64,000 bases of DNA. Origin: Halarcobacter sp. Its GTDB lineage: Bacteria > Campylobacterota > Campylobacteria > Campylobacterales > Arcobacteraceae. The position numbers and the translations under genes are program-made. The stretch spans positions 2,576,680-2,640,679 of the forward strand of contig NZ_OY781470.1 in NCBI RefSeq assembly GCF_963676935.1, in the 5' to 3' direction. The notes beneath the pieces are model-generated. The model searched no databases, had not been told where the DNA came from, and was given only the letters and a program-made list of their open reading frames with translations. Below, piece by piece: positions 1,739 through 52,778 of this stretch; within the stretch, counting starts at the first letter, position 1; the number at the start of each line of letters is the position of its first letter.

Positions 1739-3694
1739 TTACATCATAGGTAACTCAATAAAAAATTTAGCTCCATTTTTTGTATTTTTAGCATAAATAT
1801 TACCTTTTAGACTTTCATTAATAATTCTATAACTCATATTTAATCCTAAACCTGTTCCTAATGTTTGATGTTTTGTTGTAAAATATGGTTCGAAAATATG
1901 TGGCATATTTTTTTCAGGAATTCCCCCTGCATTATCTTCAACAGCAATGATAATTCTATCATCAATCGAATATAGTTCTAGCTTTATCCATGGATTTATC
2001 GTTTCCTTTTCCAACAAAGCATCTTTTGCATTATTAAAAATATTTAATAAAACTTGCTCTAATTGACCAATAATTAAATTAACTTTTGTTGTTTTTTCAT
2101 AATCAATATTATCAATCAAATCAATACTCTTTTCCTTTAATGTAGCATCAATAATCATTTTAGCAGCAATAATTCTATCTTCTAAATTTGTTTTTTCAAC
2201 ACTTTTTCTAACTCTTAGAAAATCTCTAAAAGTATCAATTGTTTTTGACAAATGAAGTGTATACTCAACTATGTTGCCTAATTTTTTATATAAATTTTCA
2301 TCATCAATAATATTTGCTTTTTTCTCAAATATTAAACCACTTGCTAAGGTACTAATAGCACTTAAAGGTTGTCTCCATTGATGAGCAATATTACCTATCA
2401 TCTCTCCCATTGCTACCATTTTTGCATTTTGAAAATAGTCTACTTGATTCTCTTCAAAAGTTTTTTTCGCTGTTATATCTTGTCTAATAGCTATAAATCC
2501 AACTAAAGAGTTATTTTCATCATATTCTGGTGAAATCATAGAGTAAACCCAAAAACTATGTCCAGATTTTGCTTTATTTTTAAGTTCTCCTGCCCAAGTT
2601 TTCCCAGATTTGATAGTATTCCACATATTTTCATAAAATTGATTTGAATAGTTTGTTTCTTTTAAAATACTATGAGTTTTTCCTATCAATTCATCTTTTG
2701 AATAACCTGTTAATTTACAAAATGCTTCACTAACTTCAGTAATAATCCCTTCACTATCTGTTCTAGAATAAAGAACATAAGTACCTATTAAATCAAGATT
2801 ATTTTGTATTTTTTTTGTTTGTTCTTGAACTTTTTTTTCTAATAAATCATTTAATTTTTCTAATTCTCTTGGTCTATTTAAAATAATAAATAAAAGATAT
2901 CCAAGTAAAAATGAGATTAATATACTAACAAAATATAAAATAAAAACTAAACTGTTAGATAAATAGATTCCAGTATATTGTATATCTAAATACCAAGTAC
3001 CATTTGGAACTTTTAAACTCTTAGTATAAACTTTTTGCTCAGAAGAAAAATTCTTATTTCCATAAAAAATATCCATTTTTTCTGTGTCAGGATGAACTCT
3101 TTTTAGTCTAAAAATATAATTTTTTTCTTTTAATTCATTGATGTTTGTATTTTTAATCAAATCATCCAAAATAATCAAAGCTGACGCAAAACCCCAAAAT
3201 TTATCATTGATATAAATAGGCTTTCTTGCAATAATCCCTACTCCACCTTGTATTAATGTAAAAGGGCCAGCTAAAGTTAATTTATGACTTTTTCTTGTTA
3301 GAAAAGCTTCTTTTTTTCTTGCATCATCTTTAAATAAATCATGTCCAATAGCTTTTTCATTTCCTTCTAATGGATAGATTTTTTTAACTACTGCATCAGG
3401 AGCTAATTGTAGATTACTAACACCTTTTAATTCAGATAAAAGCATTTTAGCAAAAGTATCAAAACTACTCATATTGCCATTTACTATCTTTATATGTTCA
3501 CCTAAAATTGTTGCACTTTTTGTATTTCGAAAAATAGTTCTTTCTAAAACATTTGCTTGAGAATTAAGAACTTCTGTAGATAAATTATCAATACTACTTT
3601 CAATATTGTAATTATTACTTTCTATTAGCTTATGGCTTATATAAATTAGTATGATAGTTACTATTAGAGAAATAATTCTTTCTTTTTTAATCAT
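1739..3694 (-). CDS. CHASE-PAS sensor histidine kinase (HQWRQPL type)
   Basis: A 651-residue membrane sensor kinase. A first membrane segment (about 8-22) and a second (about 247-272) flank a periplasmic region of CHASE type; the string APDAVVKKIYPL and the following AGPFTLIQGG are typical of that domain. A cytoplasmic PAS domain follows (about 300-405, with FCKLTGYSKDELIGK). Next come the phospho-acceptor helix with NIAHQWRQPLSA (His near 440) and a HATPase domain with an N-box (NIFNNAKDALL) and a G-box (GTGLGLNMSY). CHASE domains sense small extracellular molecules; the ligand is not known. No response regulator is in the same operon. The gene converges on the OmpR-type regulator with a 1 nt gap, but that regulator pairs with the FIST kinase. 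Confidence 0.9.
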   Translation of the reverse strand: MIKKERIISLIVTIILIYISHKLIESNNYNIESSIDNLSTEVLNSQANVLERTIFRNTKSATILGEHIKIVNGNMSSFDTFAKMLLSELKGVSNLQLAPDAVVKKIYPLEGNEKAIGHDLFKDDARKKEAFLTRKSHKLTLAGPFTLIQGGVGIIARKPIYINDKFWGFASALIILDDLIKNTNINELKEKNYIFRLKRVHPDTEKMDIFYGNKNFSSEQKVYTKSLKVPNGTWYLDIQYTGIYLSNSLVFILYFVSILISFLLGYLLFIILNRPRELEKLNDLLEKKVQEQTKKIQNNLDLIGTYVLYSRTDSEGIITEVSEAFCKLTGYSKDELIGKTHSILKETNYSNQFYENMWNTIKSGKTWAGELKNKAKSGHSFWVYSMISPEYDENNSLVGFIAIRQDITAKKTFEENQVDYFQNAKMVAMGEMIGNIAHQWRQPLSAISTLASGLIFEKKANIIDDENLYKKLGNIVEYTLHLSKTIDTFRDFLRVRKSVEKTNLEDRIIAAKMIIDATLKEKSIDLIDNIDYEKTTKVNLIIGQLEQVLLNIFNNAKDALLEKETINPWIKLELYSIDDRIIIAVEDNAGGIPEKNMPHIFEPYFTTKHQTLGTGLGLNMSYRIINESLKGNIYAKNTKNGAKFFIELPMM

Positions 3695-32418: not shown

Positions 32419-33180
32419 TTGTTCAATAAAATCATACTCTCATTACTCTTAACATTTATATTTTCTATTAATCTTTATGCAAATAAGCCAATTCTTATTT
32501 TATATTCAGGTGTAACGATGGTTAAACCAATGAAAGAGATTGCAAAAATAATTGAAGAAAAATACAACTGCATAATAAAAGTTTCACAAGGAAGTTCAAA
32601 AGACCTGTACGAATCTTTAAAATATTCCCAAAAAGGTGATTTATATCTGCCAGGAAGTGCATCTTATAGAATAAATAATTTAAAAGATGGATACCTACTA
32701 GAAGGTGTAGAGATAGGTTTTAATCAAGCTGCAATTTTTGTGAGAAAAGGAAACCCCTTAAATATAAAAAGTTTAGATAGTTTTGTTAATAAAAATATTA
32801 AAACAATTCTTTGTAATCCGGAAGCAGGAAGTATTGGTCGAGAGACAAAGAAGATATTTTTAAAATATAAAGATAAATCATTTTTAAATAAAGCCTATGA
32901 TAACTCTATATTTATAGGGACTGATTCTAGAAATTTAAATCGTGCTCTAATTGAAAATGAAGCTAATTTAACTATCAATTGGAGAGCTACAGCATTTTGG
33001 AATGAAAATTCAAAATATATAGATATTGTTCCTTTACCTGAAAAGCTAGCATCTAAGAAAAAGTTGATTATTTCACTTTTAAAATTTTCAAAGAATAAAA
33101 AAATTGCAAGGGCATTTATTGATTTCGCAAGTTCAAAAAAAGGTCAAAAAATTATGAAAAAATATGGTTTTGTTAGGTAG
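32419..33180 (+). CDS. ModA-like periplasmic substrate-binding protein
   Basis: A 253-residue exported protein of the type II periplasmic binding fold. A signal peptide (MFNKIILSLLLTFIFSINLYA) is followed by PILILYSGVTMVKPM, a domain 1 strand. GDLYLPGSASY and NQAAIFVRKGNPL resemble ModA/molybdate-type binders. The start is TTG, decided by a strong AAGGAGGAG at 32406-32414, with six nt between its AGGAGG core and the TTG. The gene sits 3 nt before a sensor kinase gene rather than ABC transporter genes, so it probably feeds ligand information to that kinase. The ligand (an oxyanion is the usual guess) is unknown. Confidence 0.82.
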   Translation: MFNKIILSLLLTFIFSINLYANKPILILYSGVTMVKPMKEIAKIIEEKYNCIIKVSQGSSKDLYESLKYSQKGDLYLPGSASYRINNLKDGYLLEGVEIGFNQAAIFVRKGNPLNIKSLDSFVNKNIKTILCNPEAGSIGRETKKIFLKYKDKSFLNKAYDNSIFIGTDSRNLNRALIENEANLTINWRATAFWNENSKYIDIVPLPEKLASKKKLIISLLKFSKNKKIARAFIDFASSKKGQKIMKKYGFVR

Positions 33181-33183
33181 ACA

Positions 33184-35214
33184 TTGATTAAAGCAAAAAT
33201 AAATAAAACATTAAAGCATCTTATTTTATTAATAGCTATTTTTGTGATGGGAATGGTTGTTTTAGTTTCTTTACATAGTTTTTTTCTTCATTTAATAGAT
33301 GATTTAGATAAAAAAACTGAAAATTTAAAAGCAAAAATAGAGATTGGTGAATTTATTATAAATGATATATATAAAATAAGATCTGATTTTTATGAATTAG
33401 CTACAACTGTAACTAGCAAAAAAAGTCTTGAAGGAGTAAATAAAAGACTAGATGAAAAAATAAAATTTATTGAAAAATGTTTAAATGTATTAGATAAAGG
33501 GGGAAAGCTAGAAAGAGTTATCAAATTAAATATTGAAGGGCACTATAACTCTACAAAACTAGTGATTTATAAAAAAATAGATAACACTCCATCTTTAGAA
33601 GTTATAGAATTAGCACCCAAAATTCAAGAATTAAAAAAAATAATAAAAGAGATTAATTTATTGATAATTGAACAAATAGATAATAGCGAATCAAATGACA
33701 TTGAAAATTTTATGCTTCAAAACAGAACAATAAAGAGATTTTACAAAAGAACTCCTGCTTTTTTTATAAGAATAACTGAAAATGCCAATAGACTACTTTT
33801 TGAAGGAAATCTTGAATTAGAAAAAATAGAAAAAAAACTTATAGAACAAAAAAATCAATATACAAATTTAGAGTTTTTCTTAATAATAAACTTTATATTA
33901 TTTGCAATTCTTCTAGGAACAATTATAGCAATTCAAATCAACAAAAATACTAATCTTTTACAAAGACAAGAACAGTTTACAAGGGGAACACTAGATTCAC
34001 AAGAGAGTATTGTAATTGTTAGTGATGGAGAAAAGATGATTGATGCAAATGAAGCATTAATCAATTTCTTTGACAACTATGATAACTTTGATGACTTTAA
34101 AAGAAACCATTTATGTATATGTGATTTTTTTGAAGAACATGAAAACTTAGGTGATGAATTTATTACTGATAGAATTTACAAAAATATGATTTGGTATGAA
34201 AATATAATTGAAAATCCAAATATTTTACATAAAGTGGCAATTTCTAAAAAAGATAAAATACACTACTTTTCAATAACTGCAACAATGAAACAATTAGACA
34301 AAGATAATAGTATTGTTATTGTTACCTTAAATGACATAACTGAAGAGATGAGAATACAAAAAGAGTTAAAAAAACTTAATGAAAATCTTGAAGAGATTGT
34401 AGATGAAAAAACAAAAGAACTACAAATACTTAATGAAAATCTTGAACAGAGAGTTGAAGAGGAAGTTAAAAAAAACAGAGACAAAGAAAGAGCCTTAATC
34501 CAACAATCAAGATTTGCAGCATTAGGTGAGATGATTGCAAATATTGCCCACCAATGGAGACAACCTTTATCTGCAATATTAACAACTGTTACATCAATAC
34601 AACTGCAAAGGGAACTTAAAATTGCAAGTGAAAAAGATATTGATAATTGTCATAACTCTATTGTAAAATATGTAAAATTTCTTAATCAAACAATTGAAGA
34701 TTTTAGAGGCTTTTTTAACCAAGATAAAAAATTAGTTAAATACAATATTATTGATGTAATAAATAATGCAACCTCTATAACAAGTGCCGTATACAAAAAC
34801 CATTCAATAAATATTGTTTTTGAATCAAAAAAAGATAAATATGAGATAACTGGCTATCCAAATGAATTATCACAAGCTTTATTAAATATCTTAACAAATG
34901 CAAAAGATATTTTAATAGAAAGAACAATCAAAGAAAAAATTGTAAAAATTAAAATTGATGAAAATGATAAAAATATAAATATTGAGATAACTGATAGTGC
35001 AGGTGGAATAGACGATAATGTTTTATTAAAAATATTTGACCCATATTTTACTACAAAACATAAATCTCAAGGAACAGGAATAGGTCTTTATATGAGTAAA
35101 TATATCATTGAAAAAAATGTAAAAGGCTTATTAAGTGCAAGCAATCAGAGTTTTGAATATGAAAATAAAATTTATAATGGTGCTTGTTTTAAAATAGAAT
35201 TACCTAAGATTTAA
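33184..35214 (+). CDS. Sensor histidine kinase (HQWRQPL type) paired with a binding protein
   Basis: A 676-residue membrane kinase. Two membrane helices (about 11-32 and 232-252) frame a mostly helical periplasmic domain of about 200 residues. A PAS-like region (about 270-385) and a long coiled coil (KKLNENLEEIVDEKTKEL) lead to the phospho-acceptor helix NIAHQWRQPLSAIL. N-box (NILTNAKDIL) and G-box (GTGIGLYMSKYII) identify the ATPase domain. The start is TTG at 33184, 3 nt after the stop of the ModA-like gene, so they form an operon. No response regulator gene is adjacent; ilvC follows with its own promoter. Confidence 0.88.
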   Translation: MIKAKINKTLKHLILLIAIFVMGMVVLVSLHSFFLHLIDDLDKKTENLKAKIEIGEFIINDIYKIRSDFYELATTVTSKKSLEGVNKRLDEKIKFIEKCLNVLDKGGKLERVIKLNIEGHYNSTKLVIYKKIDNTPSLEVIELAPKIQELKKIIKEINLLIIEQIDNSESNDIENFMLQNRTIKRFYKRTPAFFIRITENANRLLFEGNLELEKIEKKLIEQKNQYTNLEFFLIINFILFAILLGTIIAIQINKNTNLLQRQEQFTRGTLDSQESIVIVSDGEKMIDANEALINFFDNYDNFDDFKRNHLCICDFFEEHENLGDEFITDRIYKNMIWYENIIENPNILHKVAISKKDKIHYFSITATMKQLDKDNSIVIVTLNDITEEMRIQKELKKLNENLEEIVDEKTKELQILNENLEQRVEEEVKKNRDKERALIQQSRFAALGEMIANIAHQWRQPLSAILTTVTSIQLQRELKIASEKDIDNCHNSIVKYVKFLNQTIEDFRGFFNQDKKLVKYNIIDVINNATSITSAVYKNHSINIVFESKKDKYEITGYPNELSQALLNILTNAKDILIERTIKEKIVKIKIDENDKNINIEITDSAGGIDDNVLLKIFDPYFTTKHKSQGTGIGLYMSKYIIEKNVKGLLSASNQSFEYENKIYNGACFKIELPKI

Positions 35215-45233: not shown

Positions 45234-46664
45234 TTACTCTTCAATAACTGGTATTAACAGTTGATTATAATTACCCATATCAAAAGATATTAAATCTGGG
45301 TTTGTATATAAAAATTGCCATGAAAGCCTTGTTTTTAACATACTTTGTTTTAATGGCAATATTTGTAATATATTTGTATGTTTTTTTAATTCTCTAATTG
45401 GATTCTTATCATTTGAAACAATCTCAATTTTTTCATTAAATATTTTTGCTAAATTTTCAAAATGGTCTAATAGATTTGATTTATCTTTATTTTCCCCTAA
45501 AGGATCCATATTGAAAATTTTTGTTTTTGTTTTTAATTGACTTGATACATCAAATACAACTGGTGAGATTTGCTCATAAGAGTTTACATCATTAATTAAA
45601 ACAACTGATCTTTTTACACCTGTTCCATCAACGTTTTCACCGATTTTAAATACTGGAAGTTTTAAATCTAATACATGTTTACTTTTTTTCCTATTATTAA
45701 ACATCTCATTAGTTAAAATCAACATTCCAATATCATAAGCCCTAGTATCACTTTTTAATAATTTTTCCATACCTAAATTATGATAATCCATTTTTAACTC
45801 AACTGAATCATTATTAGCAAAAGTTTTTTTAATCTCTTCTAGTACACTTACTGTAGTTGGCCTTGTAATTCTAATAATCAATTTACCATTTTTTAATCTT
45901 TGATGTAAAAATTGAACCTCATCAATTACATTTAAAATTCTTTCATCTGTTTGTAAATACATATCTAAATATAGATATAAGTTGTGTCCAAAAGGCATAG
46001 GAAATTGACCTTGTGATTTTCCTATTGCATTATAAACTTGCATTAAAACAGCTGGTTTACCAATAACTAATATTACATCATTGGGTTTCAAAATCAATGA
46101 TGGTTTTATATTTATAAGCTTTTCACCCCTATATAGGCCAAATATTTTCCACTCTTTTTGTTCTATTGAACCTATATATCTATAAGCATATGAACTTCCA
46201 AAAGGGATTTTAATCTCCATGATTTCACCCTGTTTTAATCCAATATTTTGTGCCATTACAGGAATATTTGGAAGTCTTTCTACCATTCCATTAGCTAAAA
46301 CCTCTATTCCTTTGTATACATTTACATATGGGTCTTTTATATTTATTCCCCAATAATCAAGTATAGCCATAGGAAGGTTTTTCTTTCTAGCTTTTATATT
46401 TTTTATAACATTTAACATCTCATCTTTTGAGTTTAATGCTACTAAAACTTGTGTGTGTACATCTTTATCTAATACCATAGCTAGCTTAGATTCTGATGTT
46501 GGATCAAATTTATAAAAAGTAAAATTAGATGCTTTTTGCTCCGGGACTATTGCATCATTCATATAAACAACATCATAACTGTTTTCAGTTGTATTTGTTT
46601 CTATAATTCTTTGCATTAATTTTTTTGCAACAATACCATCAAGAATAATTAATATTTTTTTCAT
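45234..46664 (-). CDS. TrkA-related (COG3400-like) protein of unknown role
   Basis: A 476-residue soluble protein. The N-terminal part resembles a TrkA-N Rossmann unit (KKILIILDGIVAKKLMQRI). A TrkA-C-like domain seems to lie at about 150-215 (GEIMEIKIPFGSSYAYRYIG, then LKPNDVILVIGKP). The remainder looks like a repeat of nucleotide-binding type domains. Such proteins regulate K+ channels or transporters, but no membrane partner is encoded here. The -10 box lies 5 nt from the ATG with no ribosome-binding site, suggesting a leaderless mRNA. The dapC gene follows after 8 nt. Confidence 0.75.
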   Translation of the reverse strand: MKKILIILDGIVAKKLMQRIIETNTTENSYDVVYMNDAIVPEQKASNFTFYKFDPTSESKLAMVLDKDVHTQVLVALNSKDEMLNVIKNIKARKKNLPMAILDYWGINIKDPYVNVYKGIEVLANGMVERLPNIPVMAQNIGLKQGEIMEIKIPFGSSYAYRYIGSIEQKEWKIFGLYRGEKLINIKPSLILKPNDVILVIGKPAVLMQVYNAIGKSQGQFPMPFGHNLYLYLDMYLQTDERILNVIDEVQFLHQRLKNGKLIIRITRPTTVSVLEEIKKTFANNDSVELKMDYHNLGMEKLLKSDTRAYDIGMLILTNEMFNNRKKSKHVLDLKLPVFKIGENVDGTGVKRSVVLINDVNSYEQISPVVFDVSSQLKTKTKIFNMDPLGENKDKSNLLDHFENLAKIFNEKIEIVSNDKNPIRELKKHTNILQILPLKQSMLKTRLSWQFLYTNPDLISFDMGNYNQLLIPVIEE

Positions 46665-46700: not shown

Positions 46701-47561
46701 TTATTTGTTTTTGATATTTTTATCTAAAAAATTTTTATAGAATAGTTCTAATTTATCTAAATCATGCTCTTCTACTTCACTTACATTTTGGATTTGTATA
46801 TAGTTTGTAGTTTCGGAATTATCTCCCGTTTTATTTATATTTGAAATAAGTTTATTAGCTATTTCAGATATTTTTTTATCCATATTTTTTCTTTTAAAAC
46901 CCATTCCTAAAAAAAAGATTTTTTCTGATTTAGTTATGATCTCGACTTTTTCTTTTATTTGAGGATTTAATTCTATCATAGTATCATACATAGATTTAGA
47001 CATTATCGAAATACTATTTTCTTTAAAAAAAGGTTCATAAAATAGTTTTTTGGGTTTATTTACTTTTTTTATTTTTGAAGATATATTATTTATAGATTCT
47101 AAATCAATTAAAGACTCAAACCATATCTTTGCATATTTATCTATATATAAAACCTCTTGAGTTTCAAGATTATTTAATGTAAATTTTGATTTTTGATTTT
47201 TGATTAAATATAACTCTTCAAATTTTTCACTTGATCTGCTTACAATCCATTTTTTATCAGAATAATCATTTATATATTTTTTATTTTCTAAATAAAACAG
47301 ATCATTTGATAAGATTGCAGAGAGTTTTTTATCTTTATAATCTTTTAAAAGAGCTCTTTCATCTTTATAAAACTTTATACTTAATTTTATATCTGGATAT
47401 TCTTTATTTATGTACTTTTCCCAAAGTCTTGCACCAACTTCAGATATGTTTTTATCATTTATAAAAAGTCTATCATAATACATACCTATATTAATAGTCA
47501 TTTTTGCATTTAAATTTAAAGTAAGTAAAAAAGTTAAAATAAGAAATTTAAAAAACTTCAT
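46701..47561 (-). CDS. PhnD-like periplasmic binding protein, copy B
   Basis: A 286-residue exported protein. A signal peptide (MKFFKFLILTFLLTLNLNA) precedes a type II binding fold of the phosphonate-binding-protein kind (INIGMYYDRL, AILSNDLFYL, then SISIMSKSMYDTMIELNPQ). The last region is similar in plan to the other binding protein at 49168-50064 (AYNDIVALNPAIK there), so the two are probably paralogues. It lies 8 nt after the kinase gene. No ABC transporter genes are present, so it likely works as a sensor accessory. Ligand unknown. Confidence 0.78.
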   Translation of the reverse strand: MKFFKFLILTFLLTLNLNAKMTINIGMYYDRLFINDKNISEVGARLWEKYINKEYPDIKLSIKFYKDERALLKDYKDKKLSAILSNDLFYLENKKYINDYSDKKWIVSRSSEKFEELYLIKNQKSKFTLNNLETQEVLYIDKYAKIWFESLIDLESINNISSKIKKVNKPKKLFYEPFFKENSISIMSKSMYDTMIELNPQIKEKVEIITKSEKIFFLGMGFKRKNMDKKISEIANKLISNINKTGDNSETTNYIQIQNVSEVEEHDLDKLELFYKNFLDKNIKNK

Positions 47562-47569
47562 AATACCCC

Positions 47570-49168
47570 TTATATATTTGGCACAGATATTGTAAACACT
47601 GCCCCATCCTTACTATTTTCTACTTTTAATTCTCCTTGCATATTCTCTTCAATAATCATTTTTGACATATAAAGTCCAATTCCTGTACCTTGAGACTTAT
47701 GTTTTGTTGTAAAATATGGTTCAAATATTTTATCTATAATATTATTATCAATTCCACCTGCATTATCTTTTATTGCAAGTACACCTAAACCATTTTTTTC
47801 ATAGATTTTTAAATCTATAGTGGGGTTTTGGATACTTCTATCTACTAAAATATCTTTTGCATTATTTAATATATTCATAATTGCTTGAGCATATTCATTT
47901 GCAAAACCATTTACAATTATCTCTTTTTCAACATCTATATTTACACTTATATGATAATATTTAAAACTTGCCCCAACTAATTCTAAAGATTGTTTTAACA
48001 TTGTCTCAATATTAAAATTCTCTTTTTCTTTATTTGGTTTAAAAAAATTACTAAAATCTTCAATTGTATTTGAAAGATATATAGAGGTTTTCATAATAGT
48101 TTCAACTTTATTTAACTCTTCTTTTTCTGAAGAGATACCAAACTCTTTTTCAACTTTTATACCTGATGCAGCTGTTGTTATAATAGATAAAGGCTGTCTC
48201 CATTGATGAGCAATATTTCCTATCATCTCACCCATTGCAGCTAATCTTGATTGTTGGATAAGTAGTCTCTCTTGATCTGTTCTTTTTTCCACTTCATCTT
48301 TTACTTTTTTGTCTAATTGTTTATTTAAATATTCTAATTCAATTGTTTTTTCTTCAAGTTTTTTATTTGTTTCATTTAACTCTAATGTTCTAATCTCTAC
48401 TCTATTTTCAAGCTCTTCATGGGATTCTTTTAACTGTTCTTGAGAACTTTGTATTTTAGAAATCATTTTATTAAAACTATTTGATAATTGTCCAAATTCA
48501 TCTTTACTTTTATAGTCACTTCTTACTTGTAAATTGCCATGGGAAATCTCATTTGCAATCTCATTTAATTTAATTATTGGTTTTGAAAAACTTTTTGCTA
48601 TAAAGTAAGAAACTAAAGAGGTAATAAATAATAAGACAATAAAGAAAAGAGAAAAACTTACATACATACTTGTTATTCTTTTGTTATATTGCTCTAATGA
48701 AAAACTTAAATGGATATGTCCCCAGTTTGTTGCAGAGAATACAATTGGATAAGTATAATGAAAGACCATCTCATCTAAAACCTTACTTTTCATAATCTTA
48801 GCTCTTGCAGTATCACCCTCAAGTTTCGTAAAACTACTGTCAATACTCTTTTCAAATAACCATTTATCTTTTTTTATTATAAAGTATTCATTAGAATTTT
48901 TAGAGATTATAATAGATTTCAACAATTCATGTTGAGAAAGGAATTCATGATTAAACTCTACTATATAAGCTCCATCATTTAAAACAATCGCATCTGAAGT
49001 AACATATACAATCATTTTTGCAATACTTTTTGCTTCTAATTGCATAGAATCAATAATCTCTTTTTTTTGATTTTTTACATAATATATTGAAAATATTACA
49101 GAAAAAAATAGTATTGATAAAAACATTGATATAAAAATTTTTAAAGATATTCTATTTATACTTACCAT
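47570..49168 (-). CDS. Sensor histidine kinase (HQWRQPL type) with HAMP domain
   Basis: A 532-residue membrane kinase. The first helix (about 9-29) and second helix (about 172-192) bracket a periplasmic domain of about 140 residues. A HAMP domain follows (IANEISHGNLQVRSDYKSKDEFGQL split over about 205-250), then a coiled coil and the phospho-acceptor NIAHQWRQPLSIIT. N-box NILNNAKDIL and G-box GTGIGLYMSKMI are intact. It is flanked by two PhnD-like binding protein genes in the same operon (1 nt overlap upstream, 8 nt gap downstream), an arrangement like AioX-AioS, where a PhnD-like protein presents the ligand to the kinase. No regulator gene is near. Confidence 0.88.
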   Translation of the reverse strand: MVSINRISLKIFISMFLSILFFSVIFSIYYVKNQKKEIIDSMQLEAKSIAKMIVYVTSDAIVLNDGAYIVEFNHEFLSQHELLKSIIISKNSNEYFIIKKDKWLFEKSIDSSFTKLEGDTARAKIMKSKVLDEMVFHYTYPIVFSATNWGHIHLSFSLEQYNKRITSMYVSFSLFFIVLLFITSLVSYFIAKSFSKPIIKLNEIANEISHGNLQVRSDYKSKDEFGQLSNSFNKMISKIQSSQEQLKESHEELENRVEIRTLELNETNKKLEEKTIELEYLNKQLDKKVKDEVEKRTDQERLLIQQSRLAAMGEMIGNIAHQWRQPLSIITTAASGIKVEKEFGISSEKEELNKVETIMKTSIYLSNTIEDFSNFFKPNKEKENFNIETMLKQSLELVGASFKYYHISVNIDVEKEIIVNGFANEYAQAIMNILNNAKDILVDRSIQNPTIDLKIYEKNGLGVLAIKDNAGGIDNNIIDKIFEPYFTTKHKSQGTGIGLYMSKMIIEENMQGELKVENSKDGAVFTISVPNI

Positions 49169-50064
49169 TAATACTTTCTTTTCAGTTCTATATATTCATC
49201 ATAAAATTTTTCTAATTCAAATAAATCTTCTGGATATATTCTTTTAATTTTTACATTTCCTAATAATTCTAATAAAGATTGATAGTCTTTATCAAATGTT
49301 CCATCTTTTACTATTTTATCAAATCCATTAATTATCTTTTTACTTACATTTTTGTGCATTAATCCTAATCCAAAAAGAAATATTGGTTTAGATTCTTTTA
49401 GAATTGATACTCTTTTTTTAATTGCAGGATTTAATGCTACAATATCATTATAAGCACTTTTTCTTATAACAGAAAAATCTGATTTATTAAAATAAAGATC
49501 CAAAACTAATGTAGAATCACTTTGCACTTCTTTAATATTTTTTACAATCTGCTTGTATGGTTTATGTAACTCTTTAAGGGTTATATAATCAAGCCAATCC
49601 GAATAATTATCATTTGCTACAAAGGTAGAAAAGTTTTTACCTTTTAAATCTCTTATAGATTTAATATTAGATTTATTATTTACAAGTAAAACATATTGTT
49701 GAAACTCTTTATTATAATCAAAAGTAAAATAATACTGAGAAGATTCTTTTAGCCTTTTTCTATCTCTTAAATAGAAACTTGCATAAGTAATAATTGAATT
49801 ATATTTTGAGTAATTAATATAACTATCAAAGAGTTTTTTATTATTATCTAAAAAAGTAACATCTACAAAATAATTATCCTCATTTAGAGTTTGAAATTGT
49901 TTTGAAATTCTCGTCACAACACTTTTTATTTTATTTTGTCGTATTTTATCATATTTACTTATTATTACACCAAAGCTATAATTATTATCTAAATAATCAT
50001 TAGCTTTTAAAAAGTTTGCTACTAGAGATAATAAAATAAAAAGACTAATAAGTCTGGTTTTCAA
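49168..50064 (-). CDS. PhnD-like periplasmic binding protein, copy A
   Basis: A 298-residue protein with a signal peptide (TTG start, then KTRLISLFILLSLVANFLKA). The mature part has the binding fold of the phosphonate-binding type: SFGVIISKYDK, NSIITYASFYLRDR, IRDLKGKNFSTFVAND and AYNDIVALNPAIK. The start at 50064 overlaps the TolC-like gene by 20 nt and the stop overlaps the kinase gene by 1 nt, so translation is coupled on both sides. The ribosome-binding site is weak (GAGAAA). Confidence 0.78.
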   Translation of the reverse strand: MKTRLISLFILLSLVANFLKANDYLDNNYSFGVIISKYDKIRQNKIKSVVTRISKQFQTLNEDNYFVDVTFLDNNKKLFDSYINYSKYNSIITYASFYLRDRKRLKESSQYYFTFDYNKEFQQYVLLVNNKSNIKSIRDLKGKNFSTFVANDNYSDWLDYITLKELHKPYKQIVKNIKEVQSDSTLVLDLYFNKSDFSVIRKSAYNDIVALNPAIKKRVSILKESKPIFLFGLGLMHKNVSKKIINGFDKIVKDGTFDKDYQSLLELLGNVKIKRIYPEDLFELEKFYDEYIELKRKY

Positions 50065-51508
50065 TTTCTCTACCCACTAATTTATCTATTGTTGCTAAAG
50101 ATAGTAAATAATCATGAACATTTTTTAAATAATCAGATTTTACATATACTTCCATTAGTTGAGATTGAACTAAATCTCTAGCCTCAACCATTTCATATTG
50201 ATAACCTTTAAAATTCATTTTACTATTCTCTTTTGCAGTTTTAACTGCATCTTTGAGTATTTGCACTTGATTAAACCCAATTGAACTTTTTATAAACTCA
50301 TTTTTAAGTTGTAATGCAACAGCATCTTCTAAAAACAACTTCTTTTCATTTATTATACTTTTATCAACTCTTTTTTCAATAACTTCATTTTTTGTTTTAA
50401 ACCCATTAAATAGATTCATTTTTACAGCTAGCCCTATACTCCATCTATTTTCATCATCTTCATTTAAATAACCATATTCATATGAGTTGTAAGTATGACT
50501 TATATTTCCAAAAACATTTACCATAGGATAATAATCTGCTTTTTTTTCTTTTATTTGCTCATCTTTAATTTTTAATGCTAAATTTATAGTTTTTACATCA
50601 GGATTTAACCTCATAGCTTCTTTTACAAGCTCTTGTAAAGCAATGTTTTGTTTAAGTATTTTTTGTTCTTCATATACAATTTTTATAGTATCATTATATT
50701 TAAGTCCCATTACATTAGCAATTGCACCCTCTAACATTTTCCTGTTTAAATCAATTTTTGCCCTTGTTGATTCAATCAAAGAGGTAAGTAACTTAATATT
50801 TAAATAATCTGTTTTCTTAATCTCTAAAGATGTACCATTTTCTAAAAAATCTTTTGTTAAATCTCTACTAAATTTCATATTTGAGTATATACCATCAACT
50901 AGATTATATAATTCATTAGTAAGAACATATCCATAAAAATATTTTTTTACATCATAAACAACACTATTTTCATCTCTATTTATTGCTTCTCTTTTAATAT
51001 CTTTATTTAACCTAGCTTGTTCAATAATAGAAGATATTTTTCCACCTGTGTACAAGGGGTAATTTACTTCAAGTTGACCAACAACAGTATCTCTACCTTT
51101 TGCAATACTATCTATGTCTGCATTAATTTGACCTTGAGGAAAAGCATTTGCTGGCATAGCAGATATAGTTGCTTGTGCAGCATCTCTTGCAGCACCTGCT
51201 GGAATATTTAAAGTATTAGCTAATGCAAATATTTTTGAATATTCTGAAGATAAAGTAAAATATCCTCTTTGTTGAAATATAGTGTCATTTTTATCTCTAT
51301 TTGCATAAAAAATTGCATCAAGACTGGGATAATTTGCACTTAATGCCTGTTGATATTGGGCATCTGCCATTTGTAAATTTAACTTAGAGATTCTATTCAT
51401 TGCATTATTTTGTATAGCTAAATCAATAGCCTTATTTAAATCTACTTCCACTTCTTTTGAGATAAGTGAATTTATTAATAACAATGATGAAATAATTATC
51501 TTCTTCAA
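50045..51508 (-). CDS. TolC-family outer membrane protein
   Basis: A 487-residue outer membrane efflux protein. A short signal peptide (KKIIISSLLLINSLIS) is followed by two repeats of the OEP fold: long helices with heptads and beta strands such as VNYPLYTGGKIS (first) and VKMNLFNGFKTKNEV (second), both typical of TolC barrels. The start is TTG at 51508, with AAGG seven nt upstream. The region at about 95-135 is an Ala-rich insertion. No inner-membrane pump or adaptor follows; instead two binding proteins and a kinase do, which is unusual. Confidence 0.88.
   Translation of the reverse strand: MKKIIISSLLLINSLISKEVEVDLNKAIDLAIQNNAMNRISKLNLQMADAQYQQALSANYPSLDAIFYANRDKNDTIFQQRGYFTLSSEYSKIFALANTLNIPAGAARDAAQATISAMPANAFPQGQINADIDSIAKGRDTVVGQLEVNYPLYTGGKISSIIEQARLNKDIKREAINRDENSVVYDVKKYFYGYVLTNELYNLVDGIYSNMKFSRDLTKDFLENGTSLEIKKTDYLNIKLLTSLIESTRAKIDLNRKMLEGAIANVMGLKYNDTIKIVYEEQKILKQNIALQELVKEAMRLNPDVKTINLALKIKDEQIKEKKADYYPMVNVFGNISHTYNSYEYGYLNEDDENRWSIGLAVKMNLFNGFKTKNEVIEKRVDKSIINEKKLFLEDAVALQLKNEFIKSSIGFNQVQILKDAVKTAKENSKMNFKGYQYEMVEARDLVQSQLMEVYVKSDYLKNVHDYLLSLATIDKLVGREIENQTY

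Positions 51509-51536: not shown

Positions 51537-52778
<1,242 letters not shown>

Follow-up and report, generated by a model that had tools for sequence, protein, structure and literature searches.

A TolC-type channel, PhnD-like binding proteins and a sensor kinase in one Halarcobacter cassette: a probable multi-input three-component sensor

In the AioX-AioS-AioR, ArrX and ArxX sensors, the gene for a PhnD-fold periplasmic protein stands beside that for a membrane kinase, and the regulators are either AtoC-type (AioR and ArxR) or CitB-like (ArrR) (PMC5908839). A periplasmic binding protein also controls cyclic di-GMP (c-di-GMP) through a membrane partner in the polyamine sensor NspS-MbaA of Vibrio (PMC8967002). 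The subject of this work is a four-gene cassette of a Halarcobacter sp., found on the reverse strand of a 64,000-nucleotide stretch of contig NZ_OY781470.1 (positions 2,576,680 to 2,640,679; hereafter, the window), which encodes, in order, a TolC-family outer membrane factor, a periplasmic binding protein (PBP1), a HAMP-domain histidine kinase (HK) and a second binding protein (PBP2). The cassette resembles the AioXSR-type sensors in its pairing of PhnD-fold protein and membrane kinase, but it differs from them in possessing a TolC and extra binding proteins, in the lack of cysteine from both PBP1 and PBP2, and in its outputs, which are GGDEF, EAL or HD-GYP regulators in relatives of the cassette, while the window has no adjacent regulator. 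Its likeness to NspS-MbaA is that of a periplasmic binding protein tied, in the cassette's relatives, to c-di-GMP; however, the membrane partner of NspS is itself a c-di-GMP enzyme, whereas the cassette encodes a kinase, and its relatives have their receiver-GGDEF, -EAL or -HD-GYP regulators as separate proteins. A search of the open-access literature found no description of the cassette, which is not proof of absence, and it appears to be an undescribed, conserved form of the PBP-plus-kinase three-component sensor, one that has a TolC of its own and in which the number of PBPs varies. On balance, we consider it fairly probable that the system is a multi-input three-component sensor with its own outer-membrane channel.

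The four open reading frames were confirmed at the coordinates given by an earlier, sequence-only reading of the window (Table 1), together with their common strand, the overlaps of TolC with PBP1 (20 nt) and of PBP1 with the kinase (1 nt), and the gap of 8 nt before PBP2. Because the close relative G068 keeps the same overlap and gap pattern in proteins that are 82-93% identical, and because purifying selection acts on each of the four genes in that comparison (NG86 ratio of nonsynonymous to synonymous change, dN/dS, 0.064-0.172), the arrangement is not a product of chance. Within it the PBPs change faster, both being 82-84% identical to their G068 counterparts versus 93% for kinase and TolC.

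Table 1. Positions of the cassette, its parts, its boundaries and related insertions (window coordinates unless a locus is named).
Feature	Position	Strand	Remarks
TolC-family outer membrane factor	50045..51508	-	487 aa, TTG start; OEP 119 bits
PBP1, PhnD/AioX-fold secreted periplasmic binding protein	49168..50064	-	298 aa, TTG start; PF12974 37.7 bits
HAMP sensor histidine kinase	47570..49168	-	532 aa; HAMP, HisKA, HATPase_c; HQWRQPL phospho-acceptor motif
Kinase periplasmic sensor domain (predicted)	48689..49072	-	~residues 33-160; model
HQWRQPL motif of DHp helix, then SIITTAASGIKVEKE (orphan-type class)	48188..48208	-	sequence
PBP2, second secreted binding protein	46701..47561	-	286 aa; PF12974 14.4 bits; PBP1 homology
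TolC/PBP1 overlap (coupling)	50045..50064	-	20 nt; 14-29 nt in the genus's other slot loci
TrkA_C-domain protein, right boundary, outside cassette	45234..46664	-	found in 16/16 genus genomes
tgt, left boundary, divergent	51567..52778	+	adjoins trkA-C directly in 7 cassette-free genus members
Insertion sequence (IS) insertions in G083, slot TolC and remote kinase	L141:9350-10714 and L233:9393-10757		~1.8 Mb apart

The cassette fills the interval between tgt and the gene for the TrkA_C-domain protein (trkA-C), a slot whose content varies across the genus. TolC-PBP-HK is present there in G057 and G058, TolC-PBP-HK-PBP in the window genome (G000), G068 and G060, TolC-PBP-HK-PBP-PBP in G055, TolC-PBP-HK-PBP-PBP-PBP in G059 and TolC-PBP-PBP-HK in G067, with extra kinase and regulator genes upstream of TolC within the slots of G055 and G067; the slot of G066 is interrupted by a contig end. 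In other genera TolC-PBP-HK precedes trkA-C in G001, G019, G086 and G087, as does TolC-HK-PBP in G032. The exact order of the window is thus one among several genus versions: the sequence-only reading proposed a search for this order in relatives, and it recurs in G068 and G060, while elsewhere the order and the number of PBPs vary or the slot is empty. Seven genus members (G054, G056 and G061-G065) have tgt and trkA-C as direct neighbours, and a tree built from trkA-C and dapC requires three changes to account for these empty slots, best read as three independent losses of the whole block.

TolC orthologues (E <= 1e-45) occur in 27 of the 104 family genomes, all 27 among the 30 with PBP1 matches; three genomes have a PBP without TolC and 74 have neither. 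In a phylum-wide sample of 298 genomes, too thin to set a range, matches of the PBP family (E <= 1e-15) were confined to four genomes, all of the window's own family. The window TolC has two OEP stretches in the domain search, a likeness to the TolC of tripartite pumps and type I secretion systems; it differs from these in belonging to a separate subfamily with no linked adaptor or pump in the cassettes examined. The TolCs of slots are 61-93% identical to that of the window, and module TolCs cluster together, far from four other TolCs of the window genome that were tested, on a separating branch that itself has low support; on this clustering the window TolC is a member of a subfamily dedicated to the cassette. 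In further families of the order, PBP-TolC-PBP-HK is found in G310 and G318, PBP-TolC-HK in G225, TolC-PBP-HK in G385, PBP-PBP-TolC-HK in a Sulfuricurvum (L024) and TolC-small ORF-PBP-HK in a Helicobacteraceae metagenome-assembled genome (L022), with TolC-HK and TolC-PBP pairings also among the reordered loci. Since the partners are linked in other families in varied gene order, this reshuffled linkage argues strongly for a functional tie, and together with the genome co-occurrence and the three block losses it sustains the proposal that TolC belongs with the sensor.

With regard to the binding proteins, PBP1 exceeds the PF12974 (Phosphonate-bd) cut-off of 27 bits, versus a PBP2 score below it, and has 24.8 bits with TIGR01098. 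PBP2 is nevertheless homologous to PBP1 (28.7% identity over 108 residues, E 6e-10); it scores 295 bits with the PBP family profile, of which it is itself one row. Both proteins have signal-peptide-like N-termini. In a 57-row tree the PBP1-type clade (12 rows, support 100/99) and the PBP2-type clade (15 rows, 99/94) are separate, so that by phylogeny the two are separate old lineages and PBP2 is no recent copy of PBP1. A PBP1-type protein is the only slot PBP in G057, G058, G001 and G019, and in G032, G086 and G087 that place is taken by a protein of the PBP2 lineage; because each thus occurs as the sole PBP beside the kinase in some relatives, either lineage seems able to serve it, which supports the earlier idea of two inputs to one kinase where both are present.

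An AlphaFold model of PBP1 (predicted local distance difference test, pLDDT, 82; 12 sequences) matches ArrX (6x8w), PtxB, AioX (6esv) and PhnD with Z of 19.8, 19.5, 19.2 and 18.7, and the modelled fold is of this PhnD/PtxB/ArrX/AioX type, in agreement with the suggestion that PhnD/AioX-type proteins feed the sensor; PBP-kinase pairs also recur in many loci. PBP1 shares with PhnD and PtxB the modelled fold and a weak profile match, and departs from them in having no linked transporter and, apparently, in residues of its pocket. The pocket of AioX comprises Tyr88, Cys106, Tyr131, Ser161, Ser163, His192 and Asp210, of which Cys106 is the arsenite-binding cysteine (PMC5908839). No cysteine is found anywhere in the sequence of PBP1 or PBP2, a counterpart of Cys106 included. 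In a weak, low-identity alignment to PtxB, the Ser-x-Ser positions (Ser161 and Ser163 of AioX) fall on D-N-Y in PBP1 and K-Y-A in PBP2, and the oxyanion His position (His192) on Q and N, respectively. Given the lack of cysteine and these apparent replacements, the ligand is unlikely to be arsenite and may not be a classical oxyanion at all, which speaks against carrying the arsenite parallel of the sequence-only reading over to the ligand.

The kinase has full-length homologues in other families, and in its model a small alpha/beta domain in the periplasm accompanies a transmembrane helix and HAMP. The modelled sensor region (pLDDT ~90) has helices at 7-56 and 66-79 and strands at 83-157, which we read as a long helix with a small PAS/CACHE-like sheet; Foldseek with the full kinase returned kinase cores and whole kinases, with no match isolated for the sensor domain. 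In the dimerization and histidine phosphotransfer (DHp) helix, eleven slot kinases carry an HQWRQPLSxI[TS]TxA[ST]G-like sequence following the phospho-acceptor His, while regulator-linked kinases carry a HQWRQPLNALGL..QN-type sequence instead. A grouping of slot kinases of both DHp classes is rejected by the kinase core (DHp plus ATPase; approximately unbiased, AU, test p 0.0005) but not by the ATPase domain alone (p 0.39), and the sensor data group them with a support of 93, which is not firm, and do not reject the alternative (p 0.10). From these comparisons it is probable that the sensor was retained while recombination or divergence altered the phospho-acceptor region. Replacement of the whole kinase core was considered and set aside on the same values, which are compatible with recombination as well as with change in place.

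In relatives, regulators of the receiver-GGDEF, -EAL or -HD-GYP kinds stand beside TolC, PBP or HK in G080, G055, G067, G089, G091, G095, G225, G385, L022 and L024. G080 has the complete run TolC-PBP-HK-HDGYP-RR-HK-GGDEF (RR, response regulator); a receiver-GGDEF gene (Pfam) is divergent to TolC in G091 and G089, at a position where G086-G088 have similar receiver genes and G036 a 160-aa receiver; receiver-GGDEF-EAL and receiver-GGDEF are adjacent in L022, receiver-GGDEF in G385, and HD-GYP in G225 and L024. Receiver-PAS-PAS-HD-GYP and receiver-PAS-GGDEF genes likewise adjoin paralogous PBP-HK pairs in relatives. Because the one sensor is accompanied by c-di-GMP outputs whose type differs from lineage to lineage, a role for c-di-GMP in these relatives is likely, and, judging by those adjacent regulators of distant relatives that were examined, the ancestral output of the cassette was probably c-di-GMP. 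The window cassette has no such adjacent regulator. The HD-GYP regulator is found in 57 of the 104 family genomes and is too widespread to be a co-occurrence marker. The window genome also holds a paralogous locus, PBP-HK-receiver-PAS-PAS-HD-GYP-receiver-PAS-GGDEF, at G000:C1:541914-547485 (L143:6915-12489).

It is reasonable to postulate that each secreted PBP would recognise a periplasmic ligand of its own, and that PBP1 and PBP2, by contacting the small sensor domain of the one kinase either singly or jointly, would set the kinase/phosphatase balance of that enzyme. Signalling from PBP to kinase is likely, the existence of two separate inputs is plausible on somewhat lesser grounds, and TolC is very likely a functional member of the cassette. 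Only tentatively do we suggest that TolC would, in the simplest case, let the sensed compound or a related one pass out or in across the outer membrane, in concert with an inner-membrane partner encoded elsewhere. While in distant relatives the set would signal via the adjacent receiver-GGDEF, -EAL or -HD-GYP regulators, the kinase of the window's clade probably phosphorylates a regulator encoded elsewhere, which may be shared, because its DHp class differs and is common to many orphan kinases; signalling in this clade might also end in c-di-GMP, a step towards which we are slightly disinclined. A broader proposal, which we offer as speculation, is that of an envelope-spanning Campylobacterales cassette in which a dedicated TolC-type channel and one kinase are combined with one to four interchangeable PhnD-fold PBPs, whose number and sequence change quickly and so alter what is sensed, and in which the kinase of one clade no longer addresses c-di-GMP regulators but one that many orphan kinases have in common.

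A number of observations weigh against this picture. The co-occurrence of TolC and PBP among the family genomes (Fisher 6e-22) is not corrected for relatedness, apart from the three block losses. Five genomes (G090, G092, G093, G094 and G099) hold TolC alone in the slot. No adaptor or pump is linked to the cassette in any locus read, which also leaves without support the earlier suggestion of export, possibly of the sensed compound. The window's clade is mostly without a linked regulator and has a DHp class unlike that of regulator-linked kinases; for these two reasons the transfer of a c-di-GMP output to it is weak. One further observation counts in favour of the picture: in G083 a single type of DDE transposase gene, in copies that are identical (454/454 residues), disrupts the slot TolC as well as the kinase gene of a remote PBP-PBP-HK locus, though as that genome has ~27 copies of this IS the double hit is only suggestive. 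The five genomes with TolC-only slots carry PBP-HK-receiver-PAS-GGDEF elsewhere, after an ftsH-like gene (L226, L228-L231); the cassette can be split.

Other explanations of the same loci must also be considered. It could be that only PBP1, encoded upstream of the kinase, signals, and that PBP2 is in decay or serves separately as a scavenger, as its absence from G057, G058, G067, G001 and G019 and its score under the Pfam cut-off might imply; we hold this to be unlikely, as PBP2-lineage proteins are the sole kinase-adjacent PBP in three genomes (above), the lineage has been amplified to three copies in G059, and PBP2 has a dN/dS of 0.12 relative to G068. Similarly improbable is that TolC is merely a neighbour, an orphan efflux channel having a promoter, and not a function, in common with the sensor. 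Unrelated genes are often present in operons, and both the want of a linked pump and the TolC-only slots could be taken in this sense, but TolC joins PBP and HK in other families in the orders PBP-TolC-PBP-HK, PBP-PBP-TolC-HK, TolC-HK and TolC-PBP, its subfamily is restricted to PBP-bearing genomes among the 104, and the module TolCs are distinct from the other own-genome TolCs tested.

Cross-talk between the two PBP-HK loci is another reading, in which the window kinase would act on the receiver-HD-GYP and receiver-GGDEF regulators of the paralogous locus (G000:C1 544.3-547.5 kb). The sequence-only reading had asked which response regulator co-occurs with the kinase, and the receiver-PAS-GGDEF regulator does accompany the PBP family (19/21 genomes, Fisher 3e-11) and lies directly upstream of TolC in G055 and G067; yet slot kinases of the window's DHp class persist in genomes without that GGDEF regulator (E <= 1e-100; G058, G059, G060, G001, G019 and G032), and their DHp is unlike that of the kinase adjoining the paralogous regulator. 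On these grounds the paralogous regulators were rejected as the certain partner, and we doubt that they are the partner at all. Least credible, to the point of being very improbable, is that the PBPs once belonged to a phosphonate ABC importer whose transporter genes have been lost: the modelled fold of PBP1 is that of PhnD and the genome holds other transporter-type PBPs, but permease and ATPase genes are absent beside the slot and the examined PBP-HK copies, the PBPs are linked to kinases, and the oxyanion pocket residues are apparently missing.

If a multi-input sensor with a dedicated channel is indeed what these loci encode, they would offer a naturally occurring gradation, from one PBP per kinase to four, for the study of multi-ligand integration by one receptor, an outer-membrane TolC channel linked to signalling instead of to a pump, and a sensor retained while its output class changed. 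The relatives with empty slots would be ready-made comparisons, and a large set of orphan kinases with a similar phospho-acceptor type has been brought to light in the window genome itself.

As regards the surroundings of the cassette, the flanking genes agree with the earlier statement that neither an ABC transporter nor an inner-membrane pump adjoins it, nor does a response regulator. Downstream of PBP2 the co-directional trkA-C gene is followed by dapC and others. A promoter and terminator scan found no terminator after PBP2, and its promoter-like sites were no commoner than in shuffled sequence; the scan is uninformative. With only 36 nt between PBP2 and trkA-C, and no terminator found, the transcript may run on into trkA-C and dapC.

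In the window genome the pattern HQWRQPL[ST] is matched at 34 places (L263-L292 and others). For the 30 kinases that were read, the flanks covered mostly show no adjoining regulator, and a similar phospho-acceptor helix is present in many, which suggests that these orphan kinases may share regulators, possibly as a many-to-one signalling hub. The window itself contains a second binding-protein/kinase pair: at 32419-35214 (+), an SBP_bac_11 protein (32419-33180) is encoded 3 nt upstream of an HQWRQPLS kinase (33184-35214). Also in the window, a regulator with receiver and Trans_reg_C domains (1078-1737, +) converges, one base apart, on an HQWRQPLS-type CHASE-PAS kinase (1739-3694, -).

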